Source: Bacteroidota bacterium
GTDB lineage: Bacteria > Bacteroidota > Bacteroidia > 2-12-FULL-35-15
DNA length: 64,000 nt
NCBI GenBank assembly: GCA_021323165.1
Contig: JAJTCJ010000002.1
Coordinates: forward strand, 1-64,000
Direction: 5' to 3'
Part shown: one piece after another, positions 5,269-26,682 of the stretch
Layout: the number at the start of each line of letters is the position of its first letter
Position numbering within the stretch: the first letter of the stretch is position 1
Translations under genes and position numbers: made by a program
Notes under the pieces: model-generated
What the model was told of the DNA's origin: nothing
The model's database searches: none
What the model saw: only the letters and a program-made list of their open reading frames with translations

Positions 5269-5513
5269 CTGGGATCTTATGGGCAGTAAAGGTAAAAAAC
5301 AATCAGTTACAAGATTCTTCTTTTATTATATAAAAACTTAAAGCTTTTTTGAAGACTCTATTGCAGTTCCGGCTCAACCTACCCTTAAACTGCCGTATTA
5401 AAACACCAGGAGGCCTTTTGCAAAAAGTCCAAAACGACAATTTTACAACACTTTAAAAAGTCGATCTATAAATCTTAATTTTTTAAGGCACTGGAATGAT
5501 TATATTTGGAAAC

Positions 5514-7337
5514 ATGAAACATACAAATCAGATTGTTCTGCTTTTATTAATAATTCTTTCCGGATTTATTCAACCTTGTTTTTCCCAATCTGAAAAGCCC
5601 GGTAATTTTTCTATTGACGGCCTTGTTTACGGTTACAGCTTCGAATCTTCAAAAAAATTATTAAGAAAAGAAAAACAGATCAAAGTTGAAGGAGTTTTAG
5701 ATAAGGTCAATATTGATCTGCTTGAAAACGGAAAGATCCTTACCAGCACTAAAACAAGCACAAACGGATTGTTTTCTCTTAAAATCAAAACAGGGAAAAT
5801 TTATACGATCGAATTTTCAAAAAAAAGCTATACGAATGTTTTGCTTATTATTGACCTTACCGGAGTTCCTTCCGGAAAAAACATTGTATTCAACGGATCG
5901 GAATTTATTCTTCATAATTCTCCGACCAAAAACACATCACAGGAAAAATACCCTTTTGGAAAATTGTATTATAACAAAGAAAAGAAACAGCTCGATTTTG
6001 AAATAGCTAAATTCTTATCAAAGAAGCAGCGGGAATCAATCGACAATTCCGTTTCGCTGATGAAACGATCTGTTCAAAAGAACTTAAATAACGTCACTAG
6101 TATTGAGGAAACATCTCCTTCTGTGGAAAAGGAGCTAAAAAAGGAAAATAAAAAAACTGAAAATAACACTGAAATAACCACCATCAATAAGTACGATACA
6201 ATTGATGAATCTTTATTTGTGTTCAGCTCAAAAATTAATAATAATGAGCTACCTATAAACGAATCTGATATAAATAACCTGGAAGATAAAATAAAAGTAG
6301 CCAGACTGCAATTAGAAAAGGACAAGCTAACGGCCACATCCAAAGAGGATTTATCAGCGATAAGAAAAAGGGAATTCATCCTTACTGCTCTGGAGTTGCA
6401 GCTCCTGGAAGCCAAAAAAGTAATTGAACTGCAGAAGAAAGAGATCTCGACTCAAAAACAATTACTTCTATTAACTATAATATGCATTGCATTACTAACA
6501 GCTTTCTTATTTATGATCTTCAGATTTAACAAACAAAAGAAGATGACTTATTTAATTCTGAAAGATAAAAACAAAAAAATCACGGATAGTATCAACTACG
6601 CTTCAAGAATCCAGGAATCTATTCTTCCGTCAAATGAGGACATTAAACAGCTTTTACCTGATTCATTTATTTTTTTCAAACCAAGAGATATAGTCAGCGG
6701 AGATTTTTACTGGCTTTCCAAGGTGAATGAAAAAACCATCATTGCTTGTATTGATTGCACAGGACATGGTGTTCCGGGAGCATTTATGTCCTTAATAGGC
6801 AATACACTCCTTAACGAGATCGTTAATGAAAAACACATTCTTGATCCGGCTCTTATCTTAAAACAATTACATGTCGAAGTAATTAAAGCATTGCACCAGG
6901 ACTCAGAAAGAACTCAGAGCAAAGATGGGATGGAAATGTCCATTTGTGTTATTGACTACTCAAAAAAAGAAGTTGAATTTGCAGGGGCTATGAATCCCTT
7001 ATTCATTATAAAAGGCGATAACATCATTGTTCTTAAACCGGATGTTAAAAGTATTGGAGGTGATTTCAAACCTGGTAAAACAACCGAGTTTACAAATCAA
7101 AAAATTACAATTGAAAAGAACATGTCTCTTTATATGTTCACTGATGGATATATGGATCAGTTCGGTGGGCCTGATAATAAAAAATATAATTTACCAAACT
7201 TTAAAAAGCTGTTATTGGAAATTCAATCCAGTGATATGGCAGCACAAAAAGAAAAAGTTGAAAAAACCATTGAGCAATGGCAGGGAAGTCAAAAACAAAT
7301 TGATGATATGCTGGTAATCGGAATACGATTTAACTGA
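5514..7337 (+). CDS. Membrane SpoIIE/PP2C-type serine phosphatase with periplasmic CarboxypepD_reg-like domain (SiaA/RsbU-like)
   Basis: Signal peptide; Ig-like KVNIDLLENGKILTSTKTSTNGLFSLKIKTGKIYTIEFSKKSY; coiled coil; TM LLLLTIICIALLTAFLFMIF; SpoIIE domain SILPSNEDIKQLLPDSFIFFKPRDIVSGDFYWLS...CTGHGVPGAFMSLIG...MFTDGYMDQFGG...DDMLVIGIRF. The track start at 5496 overlaps a TATATTTG -7 box, so ATG 5514 is preferred. Confidence 0.88.
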   Translation: MKHTNQIVLLLLIILSGFIQPCFSQSEKPGNFSIDGLVYGYSFESSKKLLRKEKQIKVEGVLDKVNIDLLENGKILTSTKTSTNGLFSLKIKTGKIYTIEFSKKSYTNVLLIIDLTGVPSGKNIVFNGSEFILHNSPTKNTSQEKYPFGKLYYNKEKKQLDFEIAKFLSKKQRESIDNSVSLMKRSVQKNLNNVTSIEETSPSVEKELKKENKKTENNTEITTINKYDTIDESLFVFSSKINNNELPINESDINNLEDKIKVARLQLEKDKLTATSKEDLSAIRKREFILTALELQLLEAKKVIELQKKEISTQKQLLLLTIICIALLTAFLFMIFRFNKQKKMTYLILKDKNKKITDSINYASRIQESILPSNEDIKQLLPDSFIFFKPRDIVSGDFYWLSKVNEKTIIACIDCTGHGVPGAFMSLIGNTLLNEIVNEKHILDPALILKQLHVEVIKALHQDSERTQSKDGMEMSICVIDYSKKEVEFAGAMNPLFIIKGDNIIVLKPDVKSIGGDFKPGKTTEFTNQKITIEKNMSLYMFTDGYMDQFGGPDNKKYNLPNFKKLLLEIQSSDMAAQKEKVEKTIEQWQGSQKQIDDMLVIGIRFN

Positions 7338-7713
7338 TCATTCTGAATTCAAAAGGTATATTTTCCACCATAGACTCAAACTCACGACCTTTAATTTCCA
7401 TCAGATCATCACCATCCGCAAAGCACCAGATTATTGACGCTTTTTTTCCAGATGCGGCAATTTCCTCAAACAACAGGATCATCTCCAGCAGCTGTTTAAC
7501 TGAACTAGAATTGAAATAATCCAGGCTGATCTTTAAATCAGAATTATTATTGGGCTGAGTTATATAATTTTTCAGCCATGCCTTTACAGGACGATAGAAT
7601 TCCAATGCATCTTCCGGAAGAGACCTTCCCGAAAGGGAAAATTCACCTGAATCTTTGTTAAAATTCACTTCAGGAGTATCTTCAGTAGCTTTTATTCTTA
7701 AACTGTTTTCCAT
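7330..7713 (-). CDS. SiaC-like DUF1987 regulatory phosphoprotein
   Basis: 127 aa with I.....TPEVNFN...GEFSLSGRSLPEDALEFYRPVKAWL and LDYFNSSSVKQLLEMI (family Ser/Thr phosphosite region). Confidence 0.85.
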   Translation of the reverse strand: MENSLRIKATEDTPEVNFNKDSGEFSLSGRSLPEDALEFYRPVKAWLKNYITQPNNNSDLKISLDYFNSSSVKQLLEMILLFEEIAASGKKASIIWCFADGDDLMEIKGREFESMVENIPFEFRMIS

Positions 7714-7715
7714 AA

Positions 7716-8813
7716 TTAAACCGTAATACTAAGGGAAAAAAATGACATTGTTTCATCAACAGGTTTAAAATGAAATATTATTTTCTCCGAACTATATTTA
7801 CATAATTCTATTAAGCCAATACCAGCGTTGCCGTTAGAGCTTTCTTCCTTTAATGTTTTTTTGTAAGCCTTCATCAATTCTTCCTGATTGAGATCAGAAA
7901 TCTCCTTTAGTTTTTCCTTGAGAGGTTCAACGCTTTTAAGATCAATATAATTTCCAGAAGTAAGAACATACTTATTATTTTTAACGGAAATAATAAAAAT
8001 CCCCTGGCGCTCACCGTTAACAACCATGGCGTGCTTACTGAGATTTTGAAGCAGTTCGATAAGCATGTAGATCATTTTCTTTTTACTGCCTTCAAAATTC
8101 TTCTGCAACTTTAAATTACCTTCAATCAATTCAATAAGAGGAAGAACAGATTCCTGTGAAAAATCCCCTTTTCTGAACATCTGAATATTTTCTGTATTCA
8201 TCAGATCGTAAAGCTCTTTTGATTCATTGATATGTACCAAACACTGTTGAGTTTCGGAAACCTCTTCTGTTTTTTTGGGTTCCAGACATATCTGAAAAAA
8301 GAAGATCGCGAAAAAATAATTTACGAATTCAAAAGAATATTCAAGCTGTGCTCCTGTTTTTCTGGCCATTTCAAGAAGTCCGAGTCCTGCGCCACCCTTT
8401 TCAGACAATTCATTATTTTCAAAAGCATCCATGTAAGCACTCTTCAACATCTCCTCAGATAAGATGTTGATGTTTTTCAATTTAATGATCAACTCTTCCT
8501 TCTTAGGATGAGTTACAAGATTGGAAGAGCTGATATAATGACGTGTTCCTACATTTCTTACAATAAAGACCTTAGGTTTATTATTCGTTCTTGTAATAAT
8601 ATCCGGTTTGTCTTCATGTCGTATTATATTCTGAAAACATTCAGCAATTAAAAACGACAATCTTTTCTTAAAGAACTGAGGTTCCTGAATGCTTGACTCA
8701 TTTGCTTTCATCACAGCATAAGTAAGATCGTCATCGAACTGACCCATATACGCGAGACTGAAACGATCAGTTTTTAGTCTGGTGAACAATCTTAAAGCAG
8801 CAGATACTTCCAT
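7716..8813 (-). CDS. SiaB-like (DUF6272) HATPase kinase, tandem-duplicated in one polypeptide
   Basis: Two homologous halves, each with an N-box and a G-box: SFLIAECFQNIIRHE/EKGGAGLGLLEMARK and IYMLIELLQNLSKHA/SNGNAGIGLIELCKY. Stop codon lies 2 bp from the DUF1987 start. Confidence 0.82.
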   Translation of the reverse strand: MEVSAALRLFTRLKTDRFSLAYMGQFDDDLTYAVMKANESSIQEPQFFKKRLSFLIAECFQNIIRHEDKPDIITRTNNKPKVFIVRNVGTRHYISSSNLVTHPKKEELIIKLKNINILSEEMLKSAYMDAFENNELSEKGGAGLGLLEMARKTGAQLEYSFEFVNYFFAIFFFQICLEPKKTEEVSETQQCLVHINESKELYDLMNTENIQMFRKGDFSQESVLPLIELIEGNLKLQKNFEGSKKKMIYMLIELLQNLSKHAMVVNGERQGIFIISVKNNKYVLTSGNYIDLKSVEPLKEKLKEISDLNQEELMKAYKKTLKEESSNGNAGIGLIELCKYSSEKIIFHFKPVDETMSFFSLSITV

Positions 8814-11114: not shown

Positions 11115-11152
11115 AAAGAGAGAAACCTAAAGATAAAAAGGTTTCTCTCTTT
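11115..11152 (+). terminator. Rho-independent-type hairpin
   Basis: Perfect 14-bp arms AAAGAGAGAAACCT / AGGTTTCTCTCTTT just downstream of the 11099 stop. Confidence 0.7.
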
Positions 11153-11160
11153 GCATTTAC

Positions 11161-11191
11161 ACCCACTTATTCCTGTATTCCTCCACTTATT
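11161..11191 (+). promoter_or_regulatory. Two direct repeats ACCCACTTATT / CTCCACTTATT with 20-bp period, putative regulator site
   Basis: 11161-11171 and 11181-11191; the core CCACTTATT is identical in both copies. A TTG lies at 11207 and TATATTCT at 11226 downstream. Confidence 0.55.
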
Positions 11192-11287
11192 GAAAATGCT
11201 GATGAATTGCTAATAATCCGGCATTTATATTCTACATGCAAGGAACATTCGTATTATTTTCGTGAAAATTAACAACCAATTGTTCCA

Positions 11288-14200
11288 ATGAAAAAATTAG
11301 CTCTTTTAACATTCACACTTTTATTTTTAGGTTGCTTACGATCATTTGCAAATCCAGGTGATACAGTAGTTGTGCAGACTTTTAATTTCGGATCACCACA
11401 GGATGCATGGTTTGTTTTTCCTTCAGATACAGTCCGTTTCGAAAAGATCCTGATGCAATACACTCTGAAATGTAATCCGGCACAAAATCCTGCATGTGGA
11501 GAGTGGGATTATCTTACATACACGTATTTATATAAGAACACCGGATTACTGGACAGCACGCTTGTAAACCAGCCTACATATACCGTAAATGGTGTAACAC
11601 CCGCCACGATATCATATATGAATACTCCATCGTATTCATATTCACCATCCTGGCAATACAACACGGTTCATACAGATACAACTTCACTTAGCACGCATTT
11701 AATCGGAACAGGAAGCATTCAGAATAATAACCCATTCGGTTCTTCCAATCCTGTTTCCAGGTGTCAGTATTTGTGGAAAGCTGCTGAATTGACATCGTCA
11801 GGAATGGCTGCAGGAAATATTACCGGATTACAATTTTTTCTTCAATCCTTAGGAGGGCAATTAGGTCACATGACCATTCGTTTAAAATCTACAATACTTG
11901 ATTCTCTTTCACAAAGCACCTTTAATAACACCGGTTTCATCACGGTATATTCTCAGAACACTCAATTCAGTTCAACGGGATGGAACAGCTTACAATTAAC
12001 TGCTCCGTTCAATTGGGATGGAACATCCAATGTGCTTATCGACCTCACTTATGATAACATGGTTCCATCTGTAGATAATATTGTTGCTGCAACAAACACA
12101 ACCAGCAGCTCAGGATTGATAAATGCAGGAAACGATCGCTCGGCTTCTTTTCACAACTATGGATACATTGATGTCCCCATGAATAACAAACTCACTGCAC
12201 TGGATTCATTTGTTACTGTAGCTTATTGGGCATATGGAACTACTGCTTATCAGCCGCAGGATGGGACAGCTTTTGAAGCGATCGATTCGGCAGGGAACAG
12301 AATATTAAATTCACACATGCCCTGGTCCGACAGTAAAGTATACTGGGATGCCGGATTCGGAGGCACATCTTACGACCGCTCAAGTAAAACCGCAACCACT
12401 GCTGAAATAGAGGGTAAATGGAACTACTGGGTGTTCACAAAAAATGTACAGACAGGTTTCATGAGGATATACCTGAATGGAGCTTTATGGCTCAGTAATT
12501 CAGGAAGAACAAAACGAATGTCAGGCATTCGCACCTTTCGCATAGGCAAGGGTAATTGGAATGGCTCTCAGACCTATGAAGGAAAAATTGATGAGTTCGC
12601 TGTTTTCAACGCGGAGTTAAGCCTTGCTACAATACAATCATACATGAACAAACAAATCGATACTTCCCATCCTAATTATAACAATCTTGCCTTGTATTAC
12701 CATTTTGATGACGGCAATTATACCACAGCTGTTGATGCTGCTCCTGGCGGGCATTCCCCGGCAACTTTCATTTCTGTAGATAATCCTTTGCGTGATGCTT
12801 CAGAGCTTACAACTAATTTTTCAAAAACAACATTGCGGCCGAATATTACATTTGAGCAAGGAGTATTCACATCTCATTTAGATTCTGTGTTAGTGGTTGA
12901 TTCAACAGTAAATGCGCCTATTCAGATTATTACTTACACTGACTCCATCAACAATCCCGGAGCAGCAATTGATACAATGAATGTATGGCCGGCATATTAT
13001 AACAACTATTTATATGATGCGCAAGGCAATGCAATTGATTCTGCACTCGTAACCCCGGACAGCACATTAACACTGGCGTATTATAATTGGTACAAAAAAT
13101 TTCCGGAAGTAGACCGTTATGAATTAGCAAGATATATTACTCCATACGGAAATGGCCTGAGCCTTGGAACTGGCTGGACCTGGACGTTTGATGTAAGCGA
13201 TTACCGTACACTTCTTGCTGACAGTGTTCATCTAGCAGCAGGCAACTGGCAGGAATTGTTAAACATGAAATTCTTAATGATAAAAGGAACTCCTCCCCGT
13301 GATGTTCTCGATATTCAGAATTTATGGAATGGCGGATTCAATTACGGACAACCCGCTGATCCAATTGAAAGCCATCTGCAGCCGCTTACTATCAACATTC
13401 CTTCGAATGCAGCAACAACACGTTGGAAGTCGCGCATCACCGGACATGGAATGGATACTCCGGAAAACTGCGCTGAGTTCTGTGCAAAGAATCACTATTT
13501 TAAAGTTAACGGGACGCAACGATTTTCAAAGCTTGTATGGAGAGACAACTGTGATGTAAATCCGCTTTATCCTCAGGGAGGAACATGGGTTTATGACAGA
13601 GCAAACTGGTGTCCGGGTGCGGAAGTCTGGACATACGATTTTGAGCTTACACCTTTTATAACACCGGGAAATACTGCAGTACTTGATCACGATGTTCAAC
13701 CTTACGTAAATACCGGAGGTTGGGATTACTATCAGATAGAAGATCAGTTAGTAAGTTACAGCGCTCCTAATTTTACGCTGGATGCAGCCATCGAGGATAT
13801 TTTATCACCAAGCTCCGATCAGATGTGGACACGTTATAATCCTGTTTGTACAAGCCCAATCATAAGAATAAAAAATACCGGATCTGCTAATTTAACATCC
13901 TTAACCATTACTTACGGACTGAGCGGAGGAACACAATCAGTATATAACTGGACCGGGAATTTACCTTTCATGCAAACACAAGAAGTAACACTCGGCACAT
14001 TTGCATGGACACCATCTGCAACCGACTTTACTGTAACCCTTAGTTCCCCGAATGGAGGTGCTGATCAGTATGCTAATAATAACAGCAAAACTTCACACTA
14101 TACTTATCCACCTATTATAATACCACAGTTCGTTATTGAACTGAGAACCAACAATTATCCTTACGAAAATCAATGGACTCTAAAAGACGCAGGCGGGACG

Positions 14201-14725
14201 ATCCTGAGATCAAGAGATGGTACGACCCTAAATGCAAATACAATTTACAGGGACACTGTTAGTCTTGCAGATGGCTGCTACGAATTTGAATTAACTGATT
14301 CCGGTGAAGATGGATTATCATTCTGGGCAAACTCAGCGCAAGGAAGCGGATATATACGTTTCAAAAAACTAACACCAGCTGTGATATTGAAAAACTTCGG
14401 TTCCGATTTCGGTGGAAAAGTATATTATCAATTCACTGTTAATTCAACCACGGGAATTGATGAAATTTTCGCTAAAAATAATTCCCTGAATGTATTTCCA
14501 AGTCCTGGTGATGGTCATGTTTATATTAATATTGATCTTACAGAAAAAGAAAATGGAAAAATAGAGATCAGCGATCTTATGGGGAAAAAAGTATACGATT
14601 ATACCTTTAAAAACCTTGCTGTCGAAAGCATAGAAGCTGACCTTTCATATCTTCCAAAGGGAATTTACTTTGTTAATCTGAAGACCGATAACAACCTACT
14701 AACGAGGAAATTAGTGATCCAATAA
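11288..14725 (+). CDS. Secreted PNGase F-like protein with inserted LamG/concanavalin-like domain and T9SS type A sorting domain
   Basis: Signal peptide; CGEWDYLTYTYLYK (PNGase F N-domain-like); LamG-like YWAYGTT...GKWNYWVFTKN...MRIYLNGALW...GKIDEFAVFNAEL; PNGase F C-domain-like GHGMDTPENCAEFCAKNHYFKVNG...NPLYPQGGTWVYDRANWCPGAEV; C-terminal NSLNVFPSPGDGHVYI...LPKGIYFVNLKTDNNLLTRKLVIQ. Confidence 0.85.
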   Translation: MKKLALLTFTLLFLGCLRSFANPGDTVVVQTFNFGSPQDAWFVFPSDTVRFEKILMQYTLKCNPAQNPACGEWDYLTYTYLYKNTGLLDSTLVNQPTYTVNGVTPATISYMNTPSYSYSPSWQYNTVHTDTTSLSTHLIGTGSIQNNNPFGSSNPVSRCQYLWKAAELTSSGMAAGNITGLQFFLQSLGGQLGHMTIRLKSTILDSLSQSTFNNTGFITVYSQNTQFSSTGWNSLQLTAPFNWDGTSNVLIDLTYDNMVPSVDNIVAATNTTSSSGLINAGNDRSASFHNYGYIDVPMNNKLTALDSFVTVAYWAYGTTAYQPQDGTAFEAIDSAGNRILNSHMPWSDSKVYWDAGFGGTSYDRSSKTATTAEIEGKWNYWVFTKNVQTGFMRIYLNGALWLSNSGRTKRMSGIRTFRIGKGNWNGSQTYEGKIDEFAVFNAELSLATIQSYMNKQIDTSHPNYNNLALYYHFDDGNYTTAVDAAPGGHSPATFISVDNPLRDASELTTNFSKTTLRPNITFEQGVFTSHLDSVLVVDSTVNAPIQIITYTDSINNPGAAIDTMNVWPAYYNNYLYDAQGNAIDSALVTPDSTLTLAYYNWYKKFPEVDRYELARYITPYGNGLSLGTGWTWTFDVSDYRTLLADSVHLAAGNWQELLNMKFLMIKGTPPRDVLDIQNLWNGGFNYGQPADPIESHLQPLTINIPSNAATTRWKSRITGHGMDTPENCAEFCAKNHYFKVNGTQRFSKLVWRDNCDVNPLYPQGGTWVYDRANWCPGAEVWTYDFELTPFITPGNTAVLDHDVQPYVNTGGWDYYQIEDQLVSYSAPNFTLDAAIEDILSPSSDQMWTRYNPVCTSPIIRIKNTGSANLTSLTITYGLSGGTQSVYNWTGNLPFMQTQEVTLGTFAWTPSATDFTVTLSSPNGGADQYANNNSKTSHYTYPPIIIPQFVIELRTNNYPYENQWTLKDAGGTILRSRDGTTLNANTIYRDTVSLADGCYEFELTDSGEDGLSFWANSAQGSGYIRFKKLTPAVILKNFGSDFGGKVYYQFTVNSTTGIDEIFAKNNSLNVFPSPGDGHVYINIDLTEKENGKIEISDLMGKKVYDYTFKNLAVESIEADLSYLPKGIYFVNLKTDNNLLTRKLVIQ

Positions 14726-15586: not shown

Positions 15587-16333
15587 TCATATCTTATTAA
15601 GTCGCTTAAGGAATTCTTCTTTTTTCCGTTGAGAGACATCTACAGTACTTCCGTCACTCATCAGAACATAACCTCCTCTTCCACTATAATATTGCTTGAT
15701 GAATCCCATATTAACTAAATGTGAATTATGTATCCTGATAAAATTATGCTCGCTTAAAAAATCTTCAAATTCTTTCAAATTTCTGCTTACAACTATTTTA
15801 CTTCCATTTACAAGATAACAGTTGGTGTATTTCCCATCAGCTTCACATCTTATCAGATCCTTTATTTCGATAAATACAAGTCCTGTTTGAGTAGTCAAAG
15901 CAAGCTTACCGCTATCATATTTTAAAGTATTATAATTTTTGCTTAATGCTTCTATGCTTGGATATTGATTTTCCTTTTTGTGCTTTTCCGCCTGTTTTAC
16001 AGCTCTGATCAATTCTTCCTCATCCACAGGTTTAAGAAGATAGTCGATGGCTGAAAATTTAAATGCCTTAACAGCATATTTATCATAAGCAGTAACAAAA
16101 ATCACTGAGAAATCAGGATTTTCAATTTCATTCAGAATATCAAATCCGGACCCGTTGGTTAATTCAATATCAAGAAACAGGAGGTCAGGATTTAGTTTAT
16201 TAATAAGCTCTAACGCCTGTTCTACAGAACTTGCTGTTTCGATGACGTTCACATTCGGACAATATTGTTTCAGCAATAGTTGAAGCAGTATCCTTCCATT
16301 CTTTTCATCATCAACAATTATTGCATTTATCAT
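15587..16333 (-). CDS. LytTR-family response regulator
   Basis: Receiver domain INAIIVDDEKNGRILL...LLFLDIELTNGSGFDIL...FVTAYDKYAVKAFKFSAIDYLLKPVDEEEL; LytTR domain IRCEADGKYTNCYLVNGSKIVVSRNLKEFEDFLSEHNFIRIHNSHLVNMGFIKQY. Confidence 0.96.
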   Translation of the reverse strand: MINAIIVDDEKNGRILLQLLLKQYCPNVNVIETASSVEQALELINKLNPDLLFLDIELTNGSGFDILNEIENPDFSVIFVTAYDKYAVKAFKFSAIDYLLKPVDEEELIRAVKQAEKHKKENQYPSIEALSKNYNTLKYDSGKLALTTQTGLVFIEIKDLIRCEADGKYTNCYLVNGSKIVVSRNLKEFEDFLSEHNFIRIHNSHLVNMGFIKQYYSGRGGYVLMSDGSTVDVSQRKKEEFLKRLNKI

Positions 16334-19449: not shown

Positions 19450-19500
19450 ACTCGCCTATTCAATAATCTACTCACTTATTCTTAAAACAACTCACTAATG
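19450..19500 (+). promoter_or_regulatory. Three direct repeats with exact 20-bp period, putative LytTR-regulator site
   Basis: ACTCGCCTATT 19450-19460, ACTCACTTATT 19470-19480, ACTCACTAATG 19490-19500. TTG at 19514 and TAACTTTA at 19532 follow. Confidence 0.55.
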
Positions 19501-19638
19501 AAATGGTGAAAATTTGACCACATTTTACGGGTAACTTTAGAAGAAATTAAACTCTGATACTTAAACAATACTACGCCAATAATCTCTAAAAAAGTGATTC
19601 TGTTGGCATATTTTTTTTCGAATTTATTAATTAAAATA

Positions 19639-22600
19639 ATGACAAATCCATACAAGTCAGTAAAACAAACCCTTACTTTATTTTTCATCCTGATTACCCT
19701 GACCTCCAGCTCGGCAGTGTTTACAGGTGTTTATCAGGTAGGAAACTCTGCGCCATTATATACCAAGCTTAGCCAGGTAGCCGACTCTCTTTTTAATTCT
19801 ACTGTAACCGGTAATGTGATATTTGAGTTACAAGCAGACTATGACGGCTCAACTGGGGAAATTTTTCCCATATCATTCCGTCAGTATAATGTTTCAGGAG
19901 GCTCATGGACAGTTACTATCAGACCTGCAGCAGGAGTCACGGGTCGCATAACCTCCGGAGACCCGGGTTCAGGCTTACCTCTTATTCAATTTAATGGAAT
20001 TGATAATCTTATTCTTGATGGACGTGCCGGTGGGATAGGAAGCTCGGAGTGGACCATAAGAAACACACGAACACTTTCAGTCGTTGGTCCTGCTATTTCG
20101 CTTATTAATGATGCAACCTTTAATACTCTTAAATATCTTTCGATAGAAGGACAAAGTCCGGCAAGTACCGGACTTATTCTTTTTTCAACAAGTACCGGAA
20201 CAACAGGTAACAGCAACAACTCAATTAATTTTAATACTATTCATGACAGAACTGATGTGGCGGCCCCCCTTGGCATTGGGATCTATTCTGCAGGTTCTGT
20301 AACGGCAAGAAATAAAAACAACACTATAGATAATAATCACATTTATAACTGGAGTAATTTTGGCATCAACATAACTCCGACCGGTAATGGTGAAGGCTGG
20401 ACCATCAGCAACAATAATTTTTATAATACATTAAGTGCAAACACCAGCTCCCAAACTTCTATTCAATTCCTTGCAGGAGCCTCATCATTTTCCAATTTTA
20501 TCACATCTAATATCATTGGAGGTCAAACTGCAGGTGCATCAGGATCACCATGGATAAATTCATCCGCTGCAGCTTTTAACGGAATAATTGTTAACACGGG
20601 AATTTCCACTTCTACTGTTATTTCTAATAACGTGGTTAAGAATATCAATTTAACCAGTACAAGTATTGCAGCTTTTACCGGAATTTCATGCACCGCGGGA
20701 TCAGTAAACATACTTGATAATACAATCGGATCTTCAACCTCCTCAGATGGTATTTCATCAAGTGGTTCATCCACTGTTACAGGTATTAATATTTCCACAG
20801 CAGGAACTGCAGTTGTTCAAAATAATTACATTGGCAATCTGCTTTCTTCGGGACTAAGCACGGGTGCACAATTAAGAGGCATAGTAAGTTCAGGTACAGG
20901 TTCTTCTACTGTAAGTTCAAATACTATCACACAACTTTCCGGATCATCATCTTCAATAAGCAATACTACAGCAGCTTTATCAGGGATATACATTAACAGT
21001 GCTGCTGCATCACAGATCTATTCATTTAATTCCGTAAGCGGTTTACGATCATTAAATGGAACTGCAAATACAAATGTGCCTGCAATAACTATCAATAATG
21101 GAAGCGGCTTATTGCTTTCTAACAGGATCTTCGATATTTCAAATTCTTCCACAGGAACCAGCGCAGCCGTAATAGGAATTTATATTGGTACCGGTAACTG
21201 GGATTTAGTAAACAATATGATCTCCATTTCCAATTCGTTTGCGAATGATGTTTCAGTAAAAGGTATCTGGGATAATAACCCTTCAGGGGGCGATAATTAT
21301 TATTACAACACTATTTATATTTCCGGATCAGGAAATACTACTAACAGTACCTATGCTTTATTAAGAAGCGGGAACACATCAGTAAATATTAAAAATAATT
21401 TTCTTTATAATTCCCGCACCGGCACAATGAATTTTGCACTCGGGAATACTGCAGCTAATCCGGCTAATGGATGGCCGGCTGATGCTTCAAACAACAATTT
21501 TTTTGTCACAGCCCAGTCTTCAGTTGTTAACAACTGGAATAATTTAAGCGTATCATTTATAAACTGGAAAACCGAATCTCAATCAGATGTGTTTTCATAT
21601 TATTCTAACTCTGCTGCAATACCTTCTTCTGTATTCATTAATCCTGCTGCCGGAAATTTAAAGATCAATCCAACATTTGCGTCTGCAGCATCAAACCTTG
21701 AATCGCGAGGCAGAATCATTGCAGGATATACTACGGATTTCGAAAACGATGTTAGACCGGGACCTGCAGGATCTGTTAACGGAGGGGCATTCGCGCCTGA
21801 TATCGGAGCAGACGAATTTGATGGTGTACCATATATAAAAGATGTTGGAATAACTGCTCTTGCAGCTCCTTCTCCATTATCATGCCCTGGCTCATCTCAG
21901 CTTGTACAATTTACCCTGACCAACTTTGGACAGGCAATAAATCTTTCAACTGATAACATTACGATCAGCTCTTCAGTGACCGGTCCGAACGCACTTACTT
22001 TTTCTCCTGTTATTCTTAATTCGGGTACCCTGGCAGGCGGAGCAAGTATGACAATTACTGTTTCAGGTTCATACAATATGTCGGCCAGCGGAACTTATAC
22101 ATTTTATGCTAACTCAGTAGTTGCGGGCGACTCTTATATCAATAATGATTCTTTACCGCCTGTCTCAATCAGCTTGACACAAATTGTTACACTTCCTACG
22201 TCCGTAAGTTTCAGCGGTTATTCCGGATTAAATCTCAATACTGTTTTTCCTGACTGGATGGAATCATCCGGATTAACTCCAACAGGCAATACTTCTTTGT
22301 GGACCTCACAGGCTAACATGAACGCAGCAGGGAATACTTCTGCAAGGATCAATCTTTATTCTACTGGAAAAAGAGAATGGATCGTAGGCCCTAAATTTCA
22401 GGCTGGTCCAACCACAAAATTAAGATTCTCTGCTGCTGTTACCGCCAAAAACTCTGTTGTTACAGGAGCAACTATGGGATCTGATGATGCTGTTCAGGTA
22501 ATGTTATCTACCGATTGCGGTCAATCGTGGTTTCCTGTTTACACTATGAATAATCTTTCAAATTTACCTCTTCAGTTAACATCGCAGGTAGTACCTCTTG

Positions 22601-25600
22601 ATATGTATTCAGGACAACGCATTCTTGTTGCCTTTTATGCTACTGATGGTACAGTTGACAATATTGAAGATTATGATTTCCATATTGATAATGTTATCAT
22701 ATCCGATAATATAAATGGATTTGACCTTGGTGTTACAGCATTACTGAATCCCTTAACAACAGGGTGTTACAGCAGCAACGATACAATAAAAGTTACGCTC
22801 AGAAACTTCGGACCGGAAACAATCAATTTCGCTTCGGATAATGCAACTATTACGGCTAACGTGAACGGCCCATTGAATCAGGTGTTTACAAAAACACTTA
22901 ACTCTGGAACTATGGCGCCATGGTCAAGTATGACAGTGGTTGTTACTTCATCACTTAACCTTTCAACTCCTGGAACATACAGTATAGCAGCATATTCAAC
23001 TATTATTCCTGATTATGACTCAACCAACAATGCTATGGTTCCGCAGATCCGTACGAATTCATTTCCGATGACATTGCCTGACTACGTTGATTTTACAGGA
23101 TTTACAGGAGCTAACCTTTCTTCGGCATTTCCAAACTGGGAAGAAGCAACAGGCACAACACCAACAGGATCGACATCTTCATGGCTTTCTCAGACAGGAT
23201 TAAATTCTCCGGGAAATATTACAGCACGCGTAAATCTTTTAGGAACAACTAAAAGAGAATGGCTTGTAAGTAAAAAATTTGTTCCCACATCATCAACTCA
23301 ATTAAAGTTTTTTGCTGCAGTAACTAACGGAGGTTCTACAACTGTTGGCGATATTATGGGCTCAGATGATGCTGTAACTGTGATGATCTCAACCAATTGC
23401 GGGGTATCATGGTTCCCATCCTTCGCATTGAATGCTTCTAGCAATCTTTCAACCACTCTTCAGCCTTTCAGCGTTAACCTGGGAATGTATGCGGGTTCAG
23501 AGATCATGGTGGCATTTCTCGCAACTGATGGTCCTGTTGATAATGCAGAAACATATGATTTCCATCTGGATAATATTGAGATCCGCGATTTTCTTCCTAT
23601 CGACCTTGGTGCAAGAGTTCTTGTTTCTCCTGTTCCAAATGCGTGTACAGATAATTCTGAAACGATAGTTATCGGTATAAAGAATTTTGGTACTGACACA
23701 ATTGATCTGAGTATTACTTCTTTAAATCTTGGTGTTACAATTTCAGGTTCAAGTTCTCAAAGCTTTAACACTGTAGTTAATTCAGGTATCATTTATCCTG
23801 ATTCAGTTTTCAACGCAATTGCTACCACTTCTGCTAATTTCACTAACAGCGGTACACATGTTATTAATGCAACTGTTTCTATTGCTGGCGATGGAAACAA
23901 TTCAAATAACTCATTCATTTCCCCTGTTAATTATATAGCAACAACAGTTTCAAATTTTCCTTATACCGAAAGTTTTGAAACAACTGTAGCCGGCTGGTCA
24001 GTATCGCAGCTGGCAGGTACCGGTCAATGGAGTTATCTCAGCGGAGGAGGAACAAATCCTACGCTTTCTCCATTCAACGGATCAAAGATGGCTTTTTTTA
24101 ATTCGAATGCAAATACATTTGCAGGGGCAGTTTCACGTCTTACAACATCTTGTCTTAATTTGTCGAACCTTAATTCACCGCGACTTGAATTTTATTTATC
24201 ACAGAATAATTCATATCAATTTAACAAAGACAGTTTATTCGTTGTTGTTTCAACAGATGCGGGACTTACATGGAGCCAGAGCCTTTTATCTGTATCCCGA
24301 TACAACTCGACTTATTCAACACCGGGCTGGAAAAAGTTCTCAGTGTGCCTTGATCAATATGCAGGAATGCCGGGAATCAAGATAGGTTTCATCGCTAAGA
24401 GCGCATTCGGATCCAACATTTTTCTTGATGCTGTAACTATTTCAGAAACGCCTCAGCCTGTTTCAGGATTCATTAGTTCATCAGCGAACCTTCTTTGTGG
24501 TGGAATGAATACATTCCTGAATCTTTATTCATATTCAGGTAATATTCAGTGGCAGCAATCTGCAGATAATATCACATTCTATAATATCGCGGGAGCAACT
24601 CTTGATACTCTTACTTCACCTGCCATATCCGATACAACCTATTTCAGAGTGATAACAAGCATTAATAGTGTTTGTGTTGCAACGGACAGCTCTGCATCTA
24701 TCCAGGTTGATGTATTACCGGCACCTCAGATCGCACTTGGTTCTGATACTGTTATATGTGCAAACAATTATTTGCTGGATGCAGGTCCGCAAAATGCAGG
24801 AACAAGCTTTCAGTGGAATGATGGAAGCAGCGCTCAAACGCTTCTTGCAACTACATCAGGACAATATTATATTGTGGGAACGTCTCAATTTTTCTGTCAG
24901 ACAAGAGACACGATCAACATAACATTTAAGACACCTGTAGTTTTGAATGCAAGTCCGGATCAGACAATTTGCGAAGGTGATAACACTATACTTTCTGCAA
25001 CAGGCGGTTTCTCATATTTATGGAATACATCAGAAACTACAAGCTCTGTAATTGTTAATCCTCTTTCAGATTCCATTTATACTGTAACGGCTTTCGGCAC
25101 AAATGGATGCACTGCTACCGATTCTATAATAGTATATGTAAATCAAAATCCCATCGTTGATCTGGGAGCTGATACAACCTTATGCGGAGGTTCTCTGGTT
25201 CTTAACGGAGGTTCAGCTTCTAACACATATAACTGGAGTAATGGTGCTACAACACCTTCAATTAATGTTAGTTCTGGCGGACAATATTTTGTTGAAGCAA
25301 CATCAATAAATGGATGTATCTCTTCAGATACTATCATAGTTTCAATTTCTCCTGCCGTGACTGTTAATCTTGGAAGTGATATCAATCAGTGCGGTGGAAA
25401 TGTAACTTTAAATGCTGGTAATCCTGGTTCTTCATATAACTGGAGCAATGGATCTGTCAGCCAGACTATCGTAGTAAATTCCTCAGGAACTTATTACACA
25501 GCAGTTACAAACTCATCAGGATGTTCCGATACAGATACTATTCAGGTAACAATAAATCCAAATCCTGTTGTTGATCTCGGAGCTGATATTCAATCGTGCT

Positions 25601-26682
25601 CATCATCTGTAAACTTAACAACATCTGCATCCGGCAACTATATCTGGAATACAGGAGCTACGACATCTGGAATAACAGTGAATACCTCAGGAACATATTC
25701 TGTTTCGGTTGATCTGAATGGCTGTGTTGTATCCGATACGATCAGTGTAATTATTTCTAATCCTCCTTTCGTTAATCTTGGAGCAGATATTCAATCATGC
25801 AGCTCATCAATAATACTCGATGCCGGAAACAGCGGATCCATGTTCTTATGGAATACAGGTGCAACAGGACAAACATTAACGGTGATAACGAGCGGAACTT
25901 ATTTTGTTAACGTAACAGCATCAGGCGGCTGTACTGTTGCCGATTCTATATTGGTTACTATCAATCCAACAGTGGCTGCCAATGCCGGCCCGGACCTTTC
26001 GGTTTGCAGCGGAAATTCTGTTCAGCTTTCAGCAAGCGGTGGAACAAATTATTTGTGGAATAACACATTATCGGGAGCGAATATAACTGTAACACCTGTT
26101 AGTGATACTATCTTCACAGTAGTTGTAACTGATATAAATGGATGTACAGGGACCGACCAGCTGAATGTTTTTGTAAATGAAGGTCCCACTTCTGTTTTTA
26201 GTGTTTTTGCAGCAGGCACATCAATTACTACGAATAATAATTCACTTAATGCAAATTCAGTTGTCTGGGATTTCGGTGACGGTTCTGCATTTAATACCTC
26301 TTTTGCTCCATCACACACTTATATGTCGAATGGAACTTATGTGATCAGTCTGATAACAAGTAATAGCTGCGGTACTGATACTGCAACTTATGTGCTCAGT
26401 GTTGTAGGCACTGAAGAAGAAGAACTGCTTTCTAATTCAGTGAAGCTATTCCCTGTTCCAACATCAGGAATATTAAATGCGGAGATCTCGGCAGGTTTAT
26501 TCTCCACGATTTCCATAAAGTTAATTACACCTGACGGCCGTCTTATCGATGAGAAAAACTTTAGCGATACTTCAGCAGTCTCTGCTTCATTCGACCTTAC
26601 AGAATTATCCTCAGGAATATATTTCATGCAGATCTCTAACGAGAGAACGATCGTTAATAAAAAGATAATACTTCAAAAATGA
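19639..26682 (+). CDS. Giant T9SS type A-sorted adhesin: beta-helix region, choice-of-anchor/jelly-roll-like domains, about 69-aa Ig-like repeats, PKD
   Basis: Start at MTNPYKSVKQTLTLFFILITLTSSSA (signal peptide); DGRAGGIGSSEWTI parallel-beta-helix-like region; VDLGAD..LC... repeats; PKD-like VVWDFGDGSAFNTSFAPSHTY; C-terminal VKLFPVPTSGILNAEIS...LSSGIYFMQISNERTIVNKKIILQK. Confidence 0.9.
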   Translation: MTNPYKSVKQTLTLFFILITLTSSSAVFTGVYQVGNSAPLYTKLSQVADSLFNSTVTGNVIFELQADYDGSTGEIFPISFRQYNVSGGSWTVTIRPAAGVTGRITSGDPGSGLPLIQFNGIDNLILDGRAGGIGSSEWTIRNTRTLSVVGPAISLINDATFNTLKYLSIEGQSPASTGLILFSTSTGTTGNSNNSINFNTIHDRTDVAAPLGIGIYSAGSVTARNKNNTIDNNHIYNWSNFGINITPTGNGEGWTISNNNFYNTLSANTSSQTSIQFLAGASSFSNFITSNIIGGQTAGASGSPWINSSAAAFNGIIVNTGISTSTVISNNVVKNINLTSTSIAAFTGISCTAGSVNILDNTIGSSTSSDGISSSGSSTVTGINISTAGTAVVQNNYIGNLLSSGLSTGAQLRGIVSSGTGSSTVSSNTITQLSGSSSSISNTTAALSGIYINSAAASQIYSFNSVSGLRSLNGTANTNVPAITINNGSGLLLSNRIFDISNSSTGTSAAVIGIYIGTGNWDLVNNMISISNSFANDVSVKGIWDNNPSGGDNYYYNTIYISGSGNTTNSTYALLRSGNTSVNIKNNFLYNSRTGTMNFALGNTAANPANGWPADASNNNFFVTAQSSVVNNWNNLSVSFINWKTESQSDVFSYYSNSAAIPSSVFINPAAGNLKINPTFASAASNLESRGRIIAGYTTDFENDVRPGPAGSVNGGAFAPDIGADEFDGVPYIKDVGITALAAPSPLSCPGSSQLVQFTLTNFGQAINLSTDNITISSSVTGPNALTFSPVILNSGTLAGGASMTITVSGSYNMSASGTYTFYANSVVAGDSYINNDSLPPVSISLTQIVTLPTSVSFSGYSGLNLNTVFPDWMESSGLTPTGNTSLWTSQANMNAAGNTSARINLYSTGKREWIVGPKFQAGPTTKLRFSAAVTAKNSVVTGATMGSDDAVQVMLSTDCGQSWFPVYTMNNLSNLPLQLTSQVVPLDMYSGQRILVAFYATDGTVDNIEDYDFHIDNVIISDNINGFDLGVTALLNPLTTGCYSSNDTIKVTLRNFGPETINFASDNATITANVNGPLNQVFTKTLNSGTMAPWSSMTVVVTSSLNLSTPGTYSIAAYSTIIPDYDSTNNAMVPQIRTNSFPMTLPDYVDFTGFTGANLSSAFPNWEEATGTTPTGSTSSWLSQTGLNSPGNITARVNLLGTTKREWLVSKKFVPTSSTQLKFFAAVTNGGSTTVGDIMGSDDAVTVMISTNCGVSWFPSFALNASSNLSTTLQPFSVNLGMYAGSEIMVAFLATDGPVDNAETYDFHLDNIEIRDFLPIDLGARVLVSPVPNACTDNSETIVIGIKNFGTDTIDLSITSLNLGVTISGSSSQSFNTVVNSGIIYPDSVFNAIATTSANFTNSGTHVINATVSIAGDGNNSNNSFISPVNYIATTVSNFPYTESFETTVAGWSVSQLAGTGQWSYLSGGGTNPTLSPFNGSKMAFFNSNANTFAGAVSRLTTSCLNLSNLNSPRLEFYLSQNNSYQFNKDSLFVVVSTDAGLTWSQSLLSVSRYNSTYSTPGWKKFSVCLDQYAGMPGIKIGFIAKSAFGSNIFLDAVTISETPQPVSGFISSSANLLCGGMNTFLNLYSYSGNIQWQQSADNITFYNIAGATLDTLTSPAISDTTYFRVITSINSVCVATDSSASIQVDVLPAPQIALGSDTVICANNYLLDAGPQNAGTSFQWNDGSSAQTLLATTSGQYYIVGTSQFFCQTRDTINITFKTPVVLNASPDQTICEGDNTILSATGGFSYLWNTSETTSSVIVNPLSDSIYTVTAFGTNGCTATDSIIVYVNQNPIVDLGADTTLCGGSLVLNGGSASNTYNWSNGATTPSINVSSGGQYFVEATSINGCISSDTIIVSISPAVTVNLGSDINQCGGNVTLNAGNPGSSYNWSNGSVSQTIVVNSSGTYYTAVTNSSGCSDTDTIQVTINPNPVVDLGADIQSCSSSVNLTTSASGNYIWNTGATTSGITVNTSGTYSVSVDLNGCVVSDTISVIISNPPFVNLGADIQSCSSSIILDAGNSGSMFLWNTGATGQTLTVITSGTYFVNVTASGGCTVADSILVTINPTVAANAGPDLSVCSGNSVQLSASGGTNYLWNNTLSGANITVTPVSDTIFTVVVTDINGCTGTDQLNVFVNEGPTSVFSVFAAGTSITTNNNSLNANSVVWDFGDGSAFNTSFAPSHTYMSNGTYVISLITSNSCGTDTATYVLSVVGTEEEELLSNSVKLFPVPTSGILNAEISAGLFSTISIKLITPDGRLIDEKNFSDTSAVSASFDLTELSSGIYFMQISNERTIVNKKIILQK

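Follow-up and report, generated by a model that had tools for sequence, protein, structure and literature searches.

Two short direct repeats lie upstream of a gene encoding a PNGase F-like secreted protein in a 64,000-nucleotide stretch of Bacteroidota DNA (the whole of which is called the window here), and they raise the question of which protein reads them. An earlier note on this DNA had proposed that these repeats, together with a similar set upstream of an adhesin operon, are bound by one LytTR regulator encoded between the two. Both sets were compared with known LytTR sites, with the promoters of congeneric genomes and with pairs of the same word across the phylum.

Two sets of repeats around a LytTR locus

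The 11-mers were present as the note had described them, with a period of 20 bp and a common 9-mer, CCACTTATT. The features of this promoter are as follows.

11115..11152, + strand, terminator-like hairpin between an S9 peptidase gene and the repeats (inverted repeat AAAGAGAGAAACCT/AGGTTTCTCTCTTT)
11161..11171, + strand, distal repeat ACCCACTTATT, also present, equally far from the ATG, in 5 other congeners
11181..11191, + strand, proximal repeat CTCCACTTATT, 20 bp further, also conserved in congeners
11207..11233, + strand, core promoter of the PNGase F-like gene, with TTG at 11207-11209 and a -7-like box TATATTCT at 11226-11233, inside a conserved ATTRCTAAGAAT-type element
11288..14725, + strand, PNGase F-like secreted protein, putative target 1 (Pfam N-glycanase_C and Laminin_G_3; T9SS sorting tail)

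The hairpin has a predicted RNA fold of -21.7 kcal/mol (z -6.45), which suggests that the PNGase F-like gene is a separate transcription unit, and the tail of its product was assigned to T9SS type A by NCBIfam. The TTG at 11207 and the box at 11226 follow the repeats as claimed; the box starts at +34 after the last repeat rather than at the canonical +32, which counts against an operator reading.

The word was confirmed to recur with a 20-bp period at 19450-19500, where three copies were found instead of the two reported. This second set lies in the region between the adhesin operon and the divergently oriented kinase and regulator genes.

15587..16333, - strand, LytTR response regulator (Pfam receiver plus LytTR domain), called a-type below, contig C55
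16337..19327, - strand, cognate LytS-type histidine kinase (Pfam Reg_prop beta-propeller sensor, Y_Y_Y domain and His_kinase)
19450..19460, + strand, repeat 1 of the adhesin/kinase divergent region, ACTCGCCTATT
19470..19480, + strand, repeat 2, ACTCACTTATT, with recognisable counterparts in congeners G016 and G002
19490..19500, + strand, repeat 3, ACTCACTAATG, the copy missing from the earlier note
19532..19539, + strand, -7 box TAACTTTA of the adhesin promoter, starting 31 bp after repeat 3 in canonical geometry, as judged by offset statistics
19639..26682, + strand, large secreted T9SS adhesin-like protein encoded by the first operon gene and putative target 2 (Pfam PKD and Por_Secre_tail)

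The better -7 box of the second promoter is the one listed. Elsewhere in the window, a Sia-like module occupies 5496-8813, comprising genes for a SpoIIE-type phosphatase (5496-7337, + strand), a SiaC family protein (7330-7713, - strand) and a DUF6272 protein (7716-8813, - strand); similar SpoIIE/DUF6272/SiaC cassettes adjoin paralogous b-type LytTR systems in G010, G016, G017, G019 and G025.

Exact 9-bp repeats at 19-22 bp numbered 6 in the window and 0-3 in its shuffles, which alone is not remarkable. Pairs of [CT]C[AG]C[CT][AT]ATT within 2 mismatches at 20 bp numbered exactly three, all at these two places, against 0.6 expected, and none was found on the minus strand of the window. The genome-wide scan that the note had called for (4.0 Mb) returned these three as the only MYYCRCYWATT-N9-MYYCRCYWATT pairs with 0-1 mismatch, so a large regulon in this genome was rejected; at 3 mismatches the same wide pattern fell to background level, with 28 matches versus 41 for the reversed control, and weaker matches at C90 and C17 were unsupported as regulon members. 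Because the pattern was derived from these sites, their own score is high by construction and the independent tests are other genomes; the absence of further pairs in the genome and the recurrence in other species are not by construction.

Likeness to known sites and conservation among congeners

LytTR sites consist of two repeats of 9-11 nt with spacers of 11-13 nt (PMC4847170), and both sets have 9-nt repeats with an 11-nt spacer. The closest known site is that of BtsR (YehT) at the yjiY/btsT promoter of Escherichia coli, also read by a LytS/LytTR system and composed of CCRCTYA direct repeats at 20/21 bp; the oligonucleotide used there carries CCGCTCA, CCGCTTA and CCACTCA at 20 and 21 bp (PMC4847170). 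The PNGase set reads CCACTTA/CCACTTA at 20 bp and agrees with this consensus, and the adhesin set departs from it by a different first base (TCRCYTA) and also in repeat 3. Unlike the BtsR site, the repeats here have a period fixed at 20 bp and a half-site longer by TT.

BtsR was also the best NCBIfam match of the regulator at 15587-16333, together with LytR, both models being under cut-off (119.5 bits against the BtsR equivalog, whose cut-off is 246); being the best model yet below its cut-off, BtsR suggests a protein that works like it without being classed as it. The targets and sensors of the two systems differ: the putative targets here are secreted T9SS proteins whereas that of BtsR is a pyruvate transporter, and the sensor here is a Reg_prop/Y_Y_Y beta-propeller kinase whereas BtsS has seven transmembrane segments, so that the description of a 7-TM sensor controlling btsT does not apply. 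The matches listed by a sequence search of the PDB for a template of the LytTR domain were all to receiver domains.

AgrA of Staphylococcus aureus binds near -60 (PMC4227749) and, at agr P2/P3, resembles the present case in its two direct repeats of about 9 bp with a pair centre near -60, and in the FhRhHNS contact motif that it shares with the a-type regulator; the half-site sequence differs, the promoter here is of the Bacteroidota -7 type, and no link to quorum sensing is known here. The YpdB site at yhjX (GGCATTTCAT repeats) likewise belongs to a LytS/LytTR system, and its two direct repeats are spaced by about two turns of the helix, but its word differs from the sites here. Bacteroides hybrid two-component systems with Reg_prop/Y_Y_Y sensors are usually tied to glycan use. 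They have the same periplasmic beta-propeller type of sensor, but in the present system kinase and regulator are two distinct proteins, and LytTR takes the place of AraC as output domain.

Conservation was then considered at the orthologous promoters. When 119 relatives were scanned for the pair blind to gene positions, the single match came from congener G003 and stood in front of its PNGase F-like orthologue. The promoter comparison proposed in the note located the pair in G000, G003, G010, G019, G025 and G035, always at exactly 20 bp and in all six genomes 125-130 bp before the ATG, with spacers and flanks diverged. Of the 17 other congeners whose gene is full-length, 5 thus kept the pair (6 of 18 including the window's own genome); its absence from the remaining 12 counts against the operator reading. 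The core element (ATTRCTAAGAAT, then an A/T-rich -7 region) was found in many PNGase orthologues with or without the repeats, and since it is independent of them, the repeats look like an extra input on a pre-existing promoter. In 36 congeners, nine CCACTTATT pairs with at most 1 mismatch were detected, eight of them at PNGase promoters (5) or in LytTR kinase-regulator divergent regions (3). The ninth (G000:C90:20704-20732, L131/L200) is the only congeneric 0-1 mismatch pair away from PNGase or LytTR loci, and it ends at the predicted start of an ORF for an EamA-like transporter.

Linkage to LytTR loci was also observed. Recognisable 20-bp repeats lie between the kinase and a divergent secreted-protein gene at five congeneric LytTR loci (both systems of G016, and those of G002, G003 and G017), and in G111, from another family, three copies lie between a LytTR response regulator gene and a T9SS gene, with a pair before a further T9SS gene. 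With the window's own locus included, the sites are therefore linked to LytTR regulators in the manner of LytTR operators. No site was found upstream of the kinase in the LytTR loci of G041 and G099 or in those of the C126 type of G000, G010 and G019, and this speaks against the operator reading.

Promoter geometry across the Bacteroidota

Exact pairs were searched for more widely. Among 395 genomes of the class, five were found and the reversed control gave none; among 84,980 GTDB species, exact CCACTTATT-N11-CCACTTATT occurred in 54 stretches, 41 of them in Bacteroidota in the broad sense, where 39 of the 41 were intergenic. The enrichment upstream of secreted-protein genes suggested in the note was recovered phylum-wide, a crude signal peptide being present in 29 of 37 downstream genes, whereas the remaining genes of those loci had one in 62 of 181 cases (p 9e-7). 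A TAnnTTTG box (at least 5 of 6 matches) started 31-33 bp after the repeats at 16 of 32 deduplicated Bacteroidota sites, where 1.1 were expected (p ~1e-15), the phylum-wide offset being 32; non-Bacteroidota matches had no excess of -7 boxes at that offset, and in the aligned Bacteroidota sites no position in the -33 region was as conserved as the -7 box. The TAnnTTTG box occupies -12 to -5 in Flavobacterium (PMC9723704), which places the centre of the repeat pair near -59, just upstream of the promoter, with predicted -7 boxes at +31 (adhesin) and +34 (PNGase).

The possibility that the repeats are chance occurrences or functionless tandem duplications is very remote given these data. It draws on the expectation of about one or two lone 9-mer repeats at such spacing per window and on a few non-Bacteroidota matches that are plain tandem repeats, and it is opposed by conservation with diverged spacers, by the intergenic and signal-peptide biases and by the fixed -7 offset. 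Improbable as well, though less so, is a reader from another transcription-factor family that stands near LytTR genes by coincidence. Only 7 of the 41 Bacteroidota sites have a LytTR gene within roughly 8 kb of flank, which counts against the operator reading, and most phylum sites are thus without one in the flank examined; against such a factor stand the 20-21-bp period of LytTR sites, the BtsR-like half-site, the sites in regions divergent from LytTR kinases and an exact pair in a Vibrio genome, placed 113 bp ahead of a gene of the CstA family, to which the known BtsR target belongs. Slightly more probable than this, and still improbable, is a LytTR regulator that represses: E. coli BtsR carries a dual-regulator annotation, and competition between the repeats and other factors is conceivable, whereas the centre near -59, the fixed -7 spacing and the lack of a conserved -33 box have the look of an activator-dependent promoter.

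Strong support for the LytTR-type identity that the note had put forward comes from conservation together with the link to LytTR loci, the constant promoter geometry and the likeness to the BtsR site, and the repeats are very probably landing sites of LytTR response regulators.

Several further observations were made in the wider set. Two or three exact pairs each occur in several Flavobacteriaceae genomes (F. collinsii, L158/L159; a Polaribacter MAG, L142/L165/L191; and MAG Ww290, L146/L151/L190), so multi-gene regulons are likely there. Three Treponema stretches (L175, L177 and L186) carry CCACT-type units with a period of about 10 bp, located 79-121 bp upstream of a conserved ORF (MAINTLNESNLHKKL...); their geometry is unlike that of the 20-bp sites. 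Glycan-related domains (BNR_assoc_N, GH85 and the PNGase F C-terminal domain) were found in several putative targets (L070 13161-16076, L077 5173-8250, L161, L159 and window 11288-14725), and a glycoprotein-glycan theme among the putative targets is possible.

Assignment of regulators to the two sets

LytTR domains number 1 to 23 per genome in this genus, and the window's genome carries both the a-type regulator on C55 and a paralogue at 7644-8396 of C126. Loci of a-type regulators 81-84% identical to that of the window (G016:C19 and G002:C34) have the same arrangement, the corresponding intergenic region also holding similar repeats of 20-bp period; loci of the paralogous class (52-57% identical; G003:C54, G016:C38 and G017:C74) have CCACTTATT repeats between the kinase and a divergent T9SS gene.

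That the adjacent regulator reads both sets, as a local two-target regulon, was the version of the earlier note, and half of it stood. The two sets flank the regulator locus with the same 20-bp period, their best copies share CACTTATT, and no pair elsewhere in the genome is better. On the other side, position 3 of the 11-mer is T in all 9 half-sites adjoining a-type regulators and C in PNGase and b-type half-sites, with one exception; G010 (97% complete) and G019 (64% complete) keep the PNGase site without an a-type regulator, having only the C126-type paralogue, and G016 and G002 have the a-type regulator and no PNGase gene. The similar sites beside 81-84% identical regulators make the assignment of the adhesin set to the regulator at 15587-16333 well supported, whereas its reading of the PNGase set is doubtful, and we consider it unlikely that this regulator serves both sets. 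From the position-3 class and the presence and absence of regulators, the adhesin set is assigned to C55, and the PNGase set is more likely read by the paralogous C126 system, with crosstalk possible; the PNGase-type site probably has a reader other than the neighbouring regulator. A b-type regulator was present in 5 of 6 genomes with the PNGase site and 1 of 12 without it (Fisher p 0.004), an association that is suggestive because only three pairs are phylogenetically independent. G035 has the PNGase site but neither an a-type nor a b-type regulator, G017 has a b-type regulator without the site, and both count against the operator reading.

Two other proposals were discarded. As a reader of the PNGase site, the universal c-type LytTR system (47% identical) had no matching site in the c-type loci examined, and it is present in congeners without the PNGase site too. 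The residue equivalent to S202 of AgrA, Ser in a-type and Ala in b-type regulators, is not the sole cause of the T and C classes, the G111 regulator having Ser with C-class sites.

We consider it likely that both sets are operators of LytS/LytTR systems of the BtsR kind that activate T9SS proteins, with the adjacent regulator acting at the adhesin set and C126 more likely at the PNGase set. From the sequence, its conservation, linkage and geometry, we infer binding, activation, the identity of the binder and a signal, in the following scheme. A periplasmic beta-propeller kinase would sense the signal, and the phosphorylated LytTR regulator would bind two or three direct repeats of about 9 bp (CCACTTATT/TCRCYTATT) on one helix face. 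The bound pair, centred near -59, would bring in RNA polymerase containing the principal sigma factor of Bacteroidota at a promoter whose TAnnTTTG -7 box is good but which lacks a conserved -33 box, and type IX-secreted surface proteins would be switched on. The 19450-19500 set would serve the adhesin operon and possibly also its own kinase/regulator operon; the 11161-11191 set would control the PNGase F-like gene, more likely via the C126 system and perhaps by crosstalk.

A broader reading, which we hold tentatively and regard as slightly short of an even chance, is a phylum-wide operator code, CCACTTATT-N11-CCACTTATT-N32-TAnnTTTG, that would couple LytS/LytTR systems to surface proteins, type IX-secreted and otherwise, many of which may act on glycans (for example PNGase F-like, GH85 and BNR_assoc_N proteins), with paralogues split into T and C classes so that neighbours may answer different sensors.

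The site architecture is that of known LytTR operators. No binding site for a Bacteroidota LytTR regulator was found in the open-access literature searched, absence there not being proof of absence overall; what is new, and apparently unpublished, is a defined Bacteroidota site with a fixed promoter offset, associated with secreted proteins. With such a site code, regulons could be read from sequence, and how type IX-secreted adhesins and glycan-cleaving enzymes are controlled could be put to a direct test.
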